From Aristaeella lactis (lineage in GTDB: Bacteria > Bacillota > Clostridia > Christensenellales > Aristaeellaceae), in the NCBI RefSeq assembly GCF_018118585.1, contig NZ_CP069421.1, positions 2,356,001 to 2,420,000 of the forward strand: DNA of 64,000 bases, in the 5' to 3' direction. The notes under the pieces are model-generated. The model ran no database searches and was not told the origin of the DNA. It was given only the letters and a program-made list of their open reading frames with translations. Of the stretch, positions 57,811-58,718 are shown piece by piece (position 1 is the stretch's first letter; each line of letters begins with the position of its first letter). The translations under genes were made by a program, and so were the position numbers.

Positions 57811-58131
57811 TTATCTGCACCCGGACGGCGCCGCCGCGAAAGACATGCTTTCCTGTCCGCGGCCGGCCGCGGGTGTTTCCGGCTCCACGGCCGGAAGCAT
57901 TTCCCTGCGAACCAGACCTTCCCGCGCAAGCACATCCACCGCCTTTCCCCAGTCTTTCCGCCTGACCATGATCCCCCAGCGCCTTTCTTTGGAAACCGGG
58001 TGAAAATAGCTTGTGAAAAATACGTCTGAGAAGGGCATTTTGTAAGGGATTTTTTCAACCCTGAAGATCTCAATGATGCGGTAGACCGTTTCCGTATTCC
58101 ATACAGGTCCTATATATTCCCAGCGATTCAT
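57811..58131 (-). CDS. 106-residue protein, possibly DUF2007-like
   Basis: Starts ATG 58131 after AAAAGAGGAAACAGAC. Reads MNRWEYIGPVWNTETVYRII..., with 'IFRVEKIPYKMPFSDVFFTSYF' and 'WGIMVRRKDWGKAVDVLAREG', which loosely resembles the DUF2007 putative signal-transducing fold (two helices over a small sheet). The C-terminal 30 residues are Pro/Glu-rich and probably disordered. Soluble. The resemblance is weak, so function remains open. Confidence 0.72.
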   Translation of the reverse strand: MNRWEYIGPVWNTETVYRIIEIFRVEKIPYKMPFSDVFFTSYFHPVSKERRWGIMVRRKDWGKAVDVLAREGLVRREMLPAVEPETPAAGRGQESMSFAAAPSGCR

Positions 58132-58485: not shown

Positions 58486-58522
58486 TAGAAAAAGGCCGCT
58501 TGTCCGATTCGGATAAGCGGCC
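58486..58522 (-). terminator. Terminator of the 36-residue peptide gene
   Basis: Minus strand GGCCGCTTATCCG-aat-CGGACAAGCGGCC (13-bp stem with one wobble) followed by TTTTTCTATCC. Confidence 0.92.
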
Positions 58523-58547
58523 GTGATCACTGAAAGAATTCCGGAAA

Positions 58548-58658
58548 TTATACACCGGAGCCCTTCAGCCTGACGGACGCACACCCGACACGGATATCCT
58601 TAACAGCAGTCTTCTCTGCGGTAATCAGCTTCTGGTTCATAATCCATGCAGTCTTCAT
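58548..58658 (-). CDS. Orphan 36-residue peptide
   Basis: ATG 58658 to TAA 58548. AGAAAGGAG lies nine bases before the start, a near-perfect promoter 32 bases further back, and a strong terminator 26 bases after the stop, so this is a complete one-gene unit. It begins MKTAWIMNQKLITAEKTAVK and ends DIRVGCASVRLKGSGV. Basic, with one cysteine, no signal peptide and no membrane helix. The charged N-terminal half and Gly/Ser/Cys C-terminal core look like a leader-core peptide, but no modification or export gene is adjacent. I do not recognise it. Confidence 0.75.
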   Translation of the reverse strand: MKTAWIMNQKLITAEKTAVKDIRVGCASVRLKGSGV

Positions 58659-58689
58659 ACAAAGGGCTCCTTTCTGAAAGATTGGGAAG

Positions 58690-58718
58690 ACTATACAATG
58701 TATACAAAGGAGTGTCAA
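58690..58718 (-). promoter_or_regulatory. Strong promoter of the 36-residue peptide gene
   Basis: Minus strand TTGACA (58713-58718), 17-base spacer, TATAGT (58690-58695). The spacer contains the palindrome TTGTATACAT, which may be an operator. Confidence 0.88.

Follow-up and report, generated by a model that had tools for sequence, protein, structure and literature searches.

A short peptide gene of Aristaeella lactis belongs to a multi-copy family of probable leader-peptide transcription attenuators

In the window, as we call the whole 64,000-nucleotide stretch of Aristaeella lactis DNA analyzed here, a 36-codon peptide gene forms part of a probable transcription attenuator, a leader-peptide element of about 195 nt that occurs in many copies. 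It is quite probable, in our view, that this element and its relatives sense translation, with the position of the ribosome on the short leader ORF deciding whether a terminator or an antiterminator is formed. We infer that the family controls dispersed genes for small-molecule-modifying enzymes, including GNAT acetyltransferases, SAM methyltransferases, APH, nitroreductase, NUDIX, HAD, and others. The first-pass annotation had described the locus as a complete minimal gene and had offered a small regulator as one possible role, and this was close; the regulator would be the RNA and its translation, however, rather than the peptide. The parts of the window copy are as follows.

58718-58713 and 58695-58690, (-) strand: sigma-70/A-type promoter, TTGACA and TATAGT with a 17-nt spacer (motif scan)
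58667-58675, (-) strand: Shine-Dalgarno (SD) sequence of the leader ORF, AGAAAGGAG, kept in the alignment of copies
58662..58670, (-) strand: 5′ strand of P1, the anti-antiterminator, GGAGCCCTT, overlapping the SD and a perfect complement of 58557-58565
58548..58658, (-) strand: leader ORF MKTAWIMNQKLITAEKTAVKDIRVGCASVRLKGSGV, 36 codons, ATG at 58658, TAA at 58550-58548 (stop included)
58557..58565, (-) strand: 3′ strand of P1, AAGGGCTCC, within the end of the leader ORF
58573..58588, (-) strand: 5′ strand of the antiterminator, about TCGGGTGTGCGTCCG, predicted partner of the terminator 5′ arm (folding of a transcript that ends short of the 3′ arm; copy-specific pairing)
58530..58568, (-) strand: predicted hairpin CTGAAGGGCTCCGG...CCGGAATTCTTTCAG across the stop codon, nested inside the antiterminator (folds)
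58489..58522, (-) strand: intrinsic terminator GGCCGCTTATCCG-AAT-CGGACAAGCGGCC-TTTTT (RNAfold)
57811..58131, (-) strand: presumed regulated gene, encoding a conserved protein of ~106 aa (synteny in 8 genomes, 44-80% identical)

Most of the parts named in the first-pass annotation are indeed there: the promoter on the (-) strand at 58718-58690, the ribosome site at 58675-58667, and the 36-codon frame all stand as described. The terminator is present as well, but its stem had been given as 13 bp, whereas RNAfold gives a hairpin at 58522-58494 with 12 pairs and one A.C mismatch, followed by TTTTT. The promoter matches the consensus at 11 of 12 positions and ranks best among three sites in 2.8 kb, a scan in which shuffled sequences yield 2.2 sites at a looser cut-off. 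Clearly, the set of parts as a whole lies far beyond chance, since across the genus the entire arrangement is found again in 90 readable copies.

The gene had also been called an orphan, and a search for conservation of the peptide had been proposed. When the 36-aa peptide alone was used in a protein search, the matches were weak and included only two partial relatives in the genus, and on this evidence the gene would have passed for an orphan. Searching with the DNA of the whole unit, in contrast, revealed close copies in several genomes, and in the window's own genome a second copy that has diverged. The loci that were read share a common plan, in which a promoter is followed by a CAATCTTT-like start, AGAAAGGAGCTCTTC, an ATG, a short ORF, and a conserved GCCGCTTATCC hairpin with a T run, after which a ribosome site and the ATG of another gene usually appear. 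A search with a 13-base SD pattern found one copy only, and a covariance model was therefore used, the first of these being built from 13 copies. Attenuator matches were found in this way in 29 of the 45 genomes of the genus, with about 12 in each of the richest genomes (some of them reverse-strand or partial), and a second model found six clear copies in the window's own genome; the orphan label does not hold.

At the level of the family, the covariance model reaches 34 of 308 genomes, and the few convincing copies in other genera precede GNAT and methyltransferase genes. Outside the order there are two credible copies. The leader peptide of one (L218) also ends in IREE, and this copy precedes an ABC exporter-like gene, while the other (L220) precedes the same methyltransferase-GNAT pair that is found in the genus of the window genome; these leaders in another order could be either ancient or transferred. 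Several weak matches (L187, L202, L216, and L219, and probably also L201, L204, and L205) are unconvincing members. The relatives are rumen and omasum Clostridia MAGs, and MAG assemblies can lose copies. No Rfam family scored above its gathering score in the window or in seven copy-bearing loci; the trpB motif came out best (E=0.19, 24.9 of 59 bits) and was rejected as below the cut-off, and 6S-like RNA and T-box were considered and set aside. A literature search likewise turned up no description of this attenuator family, although the coverage of that search was incomplete and makes this weak evidence.

One line of evidence for an attenuator comes from the anatomy of the leader ORF, which was surveyed at 95 matched loci, 90 of them complete enough to read. 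An ORF preceded by an SD occurs in all 90, starting with ATG (84) or GTG (6), and the -35 hexamer is TTGACA, TTGACG, or TTGACT in 88 of 89 copies, with a spacer of 17 or 18. In 89 of the 90 copies, the ORF has 27-39 codons and its stop lies 47-69 nt upstream of the element's end (usually 57-61) and about 20 nt ahead of the conserved terminator; the exception, L135, has a 50-codon ORF running into the terminator. The ORF thus varies in length, yet its stop keeps almost the same distance from the terminator, which suggests that the site where translation ends matters. Changes in the middle of the ORF are distributed 78/82/123 over the three codon positions, with the third position highest (P=2e-4, 33 independent pairs), and pN/pS is 0.52, a sign of weak purifying selection. 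Together, these two figures suggest an ORF that is translated now or was recently, with a peptide that is weakly constrained.

A second line of evidence comes from the pairings that the transcript can form. The SD region, GGAGCUCUUC (window copy: GGAGCCCUUU), can base-pair with the last part of the ORF, GAAGAGCUCC (window copy: GAAGGGCUCC), and the two sides co-change between copies; compensatory changes in P1 are seen, for example, in G001 (GGAGCTCTTC/GAAGAGCTCC). In truncated folds, the end of the ORF pairs instead with the terminator 5′ arm for as long as the 3′ arm is unmade, and here too the partners differ from copy to copy, with AGAGA facing UCUCU, AGGGA facing UCCCU, and GGAGA facing UCUCC. 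Because P1 and the antiterminator both use the ORF tail, they are mutually exclusive, and so are the antiterminator and the terminator, since both use the terminator arm. Both pairings of the tail, to the ribosome site and to the terminator arm, are maintained among copies even as the peptide diverges, and the C-terminal stretch GCASVRLKGSGV of the window peptide overlaps bases that take part in them.

Covariation was measured in several ways. Among 28 clusters of diverged copies, the pairing energy with a copy's own partner beats that with swapped partners for P1 and for the antiterminator alike (permutation P=5e-5 each), with L135 left out of the swap test as its stop lies inside the terminator. 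In the unfitted alignment A1, 11 of 22 pairs have changed on both sides; shuffles gave 4.0 such pairs, and sliding the partner gave 0-3. The terminator helix is 97% paired, with changes on both sides in 8 of 12 pairs (13 copies). Some copies have a weak P1 or a weak antiterminator. In the window copy, P1 is a strong duplex (-20.1 kcal/mol) and is absent from the minimum-energy fold.

Considering these structures, the switch could work as follows. The promoter would drive a leader of ~195 nt, in which a strong ribosome site starts a short ORF ending ~20 nt before the terminator. With no ribosome on the leader, P1 would form and transcription would terminate. A ribosome that reaches the stop codon would cover the ORF tail, and the terminator would again form. 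Should a ribosome be detained at the start codon or immediately beyond it, P1 would be blocked and the tail left free, so that the antiterminator could form and the downstream gene could be transcribed. Compounds that slow or arrest translation would be the likely inducers, and induction by translation inhibitors is a guess drawn from gene content and from analogy with the vmlR leader.

This scheme was modeled by masking the footprint of the ribosome and folding the transcript up to the terminator loop. Over the 28 clusters, mean antiterminator pairing was 0.33 with no ribosome and rose to 0.57 with one at the start codon; a mid-ORF ribosome gave 0.29, and one at the stop codon gave 0.09. These values fit an attenuator that stays off if the leader is untranslated or is translated to its end, and is turned on if ribosomes are held close to the start. 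Discrimination is weak in the window copy, where the antiterminator is strong throughout, its pairing with the ORF tail being 0.53 for each of the four masked states. When the same copy was scanned codon by codon, pairing dropped only with the ribosome in the second half of the ORF and recovered at the last few codons, with no drop at the stop codon; the any-pairing measure used in that scan is less specific than the four-state measure, because unrelated pairings raise it. Switching by ribosome position is thus something we infer for the family, and with more uncertainty for the window copy.

The genes that follow the attenuators provide a third line of evidence. Nearly all copies have another gene after the terminator, and the distance from element to gene start is 50 nt or less in 69 of 87 cases, typically ~30 nt. 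In a tally of first downstream genes, 16 of the 28 clusters had a GNAT acetyltransferase or a class I SAM methyltransferase. The window's own genome holds 88 GNAT and 42 methyltransferase matches, or 130 in all (about 4% of an assumed ~3,100 genes), and against this background the enrichment has a binomial P of about 2e-15, or 9e-10 if the background is set at 10%. Other first downstream genes encode nitroreductase, HAD, 2′-5′ RNA ligase-like, phosphodiesterase, and nucleoside phosphorylase proteins, with APH and RsgA-like genes further along. One copy in the window's own genome (C1:1766504-1766704) heads a same-strand run of ~9 genes (GNAT, methyltransferase, GNAT, methyltransferase, PfkB, HTH, GNAT, NUDIX, HAD, GNAT). 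Acetyltransferases and methyltransferases of these kinds often serve to neutralize toxic compounds. None of ten downstream enzymes checked reached a named NCBIfam resistance model, so the word detoxification is used here on the strength of family type.

Two further observations concern gene neighborhoods. Many of the GNAT and methyltransferase matches in G000:C1 lie in tight same-strand runs that resemble cassette arrays, at about 211-264, 303-308, 476-485, 1396-1453, 1759-1766, 1938-1942, and 3307-3325 kb (parts of these are in L206-L208 and L210-L215); some of the arrays are headed by an attenuator, and others, such as that at 1396-1453 kb, carry no recognized copy. A class of IRTGFVSDHPKSRPE-like leaders (L119, L106, L101, L149, and L098) precedes an odd methyltransferase-like gene and a gene for an RsgA-family ribosome GTPase, the latter possibly an extra copy linked to ribosome stress.

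The window copy itself most likely controls the gene for the 106-aa protein at 57811-58131, judging from gene order. This gene occupies the same position after the leader in eight genomes. The gap between leader and gene is about 356 nt in the window (139 nt in G044), far more than the typical ~30 nt, so the case for control rests on synteny; a promoter scan of the gap found no further promoter-like site on the (-) strand. The protein has no Pfam or NCBIfam match. AlphaFold2 predicts a beta-alpha-beta-beta-alpha core (mean pLDDT 73), for which a Foldseek search of the PDB gave no significant match (best E=0.049), and the protein may resemble DUF2007-type small proteins. It has invariant KMPFSD and FF motifs, and its gene adjoins one for a GGDEF protein. 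Relatives (L185, L183, and L182) have, between the terminator and the 106-aa gene, a further small ORF (like MRxITAxRxRLLLxN) that comes with a ribosome site of its own; the window genome and G044 lack this ORF or carry it in broken form.

Another way to read the same architecture is as an attenuator responding through its codons to an amino acid or charged tRNA, as in the trp and his type, or to a peptide-ligand pair, as in TnaC, and not to general translation arrest. The leaders do show a feature that would suit such sensing, in that 37 of 50 anchored peptides (e.g., those of L123, L134, L174, and L094) have an Arg codon placed exactly 14 codons ahead of the stop, with a GCG-AAC (Ala-Asn) motif upstream of it and GTn-TCC downstream in the same leaders, and an upstream AN(T/E/N) motif in some leader classes. 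The codons of this region are nearly invariant, and the constraint may therefore be one of RNA or of decoding. However, the leader peptides contain no single-codon runs (their longest residue run is 3), and they vary widely among copies that precede similar genes, while the downstream genes do not make up a single biosynthetic pathway. An attenuator based on amino-acid codon runs was set aside, and sensing of a specific amino acid or ligand seems unlikely overall.

The peptides could also be precursors of RiPPs or signals, as had been suggested for the window peptide, with the downstream enzymes tailoring them and the terminator setting the ratio of precursor to enzyme. A short ORF and a terminator are indeed followed by enzyme classes able to tailor RiPPs (methyltransferases, acetyltransferases, and nitroreductases), and one methyltransferase is weakly similar to a daptide methyltransferase model, far below its cut-off. 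Even so, the copies were found to have in common neither a leader-peptide sequence nor a recognition sequence, and no adjacent maturation system was found; what they conserve are the RNA pairings with the ribosome site and the terminator arm. The downstream genes, moreover, include those for RsgA GTPase, APH, NUDIX, HAD, PfkB, and 2′-5′ RNA ligase-like proteins, and the window peptide matches no Pfam or NCBIfam family. No sign of signaling, of maturation, or of a link to the radical SAM gene elsewhere in the window was seen, and a precursor role is very improbable.

Little more can be said for a non-coding small RNA or a constitutive terminator element with an incidental ORF. The strong structure and terminator, and the lack of a gene directly after the window copy, would agree with it, but this reading is highly doubtful given that SD and ORF are kept in every readable copy, that third codon positions are the most variable, and that most copies lie directly upstream of a same-strand gene. 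As for a free-standing functional small protein, such as a toxin or regulator, the open, well-started frame and its weak purifying selection do not outweigh a peptide that is unconserved between copies, not strongly hydrophobic (GRAVY 0.09, for which a type I toxin was set aside), without a family match, and constrained at the 3′ end of its ORF by RNA pairing, and we give it hardly any credence.

For the preferred reading, a translation-sensing attenuator, the closest known system appears to be the vmlR leader of Bacillus subtilis, which by analogy has the same three-structure logic. There, a uORF lies in an anti-antiterminator hairpin, and a stalled ribosome lets the antiterminator form, giving antibiotic-induced attenuation of a single ABC-F gene (PMC9226507). 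Both have a leader of about 200 nt, a uORF enclosed by the anti-antiterminator, and a mutually exclusive antiterminator and intrinsic terminator before the regulated gene. The vmlR leader differs in having a further SD-sequestering hairpin and NusG pausing, whereas here a related promoter-leader-terminator unit is repeated before many unrelated enzyme genes, with no ABC-F gene seen among them. A leader peptide and an intrinsic terminator also precede the methyltransferase gene tlrB (yxjB) of B. subtilis, which is induced by a drug that targets the ribosome (PMC6851288). In that case, however, no overlapping antiterminator was found, and the terminator is blocked directly by the ribosome, which stalls at an RYR motif at the C-terminus of the peptide (PMC6851288); the RLK of the window peptide, in comparison, is absent from most copies.

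Two other systems are more distant. The first, toiL, is a short uORF of the E. coli topAI-yjhQ operon that responds to several classes of ribosome-targeting antibiotics (PMC12121999); the likeness is the short uORF, and the difference is that toiL serves one operon in an unrelated bacterium. We know of no related sequence. In Actinobacteria, ribosome-targeting drugs turn on many resistance genes through WhiB7/WblC (PMC7157823, PMC10727445), a single transcription factor that spreads the response, whereas here each operon would have its own cis attenuator.

It is conceivable, at a little under an even chance, that the family amounts to a cis-encoded translation-stress regulon, in which one type of attenuator has been copied before many unrelated detoxification-like operons with no master regulator of the WhiB7 kind. 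If so, modifying enzymes would be switched on whenever ribosomes are inhibited, including the long acetyltransferase and methyltransferase runs, and the element would point to GNAT and methyltransferase genes whose enzymes act on natural products of the rumen that target the ribosome.

Leader-peptide attenuators of the vmlR-like type are usually described gene by gene. In the present case, the same element stands before different enzyme genes at up to about a dozen sites per genome, much as a riboswitch class does, and it stands outside Rfam. What was called a peptide gene with a terminator can thus turn out to be a regulatory leader. The covariance model would provide a sequence handle on those genes of rumen bacteria that are switched on by disturbed translation, many of them for uncharacterized acetyltransferases and methyltransferases.
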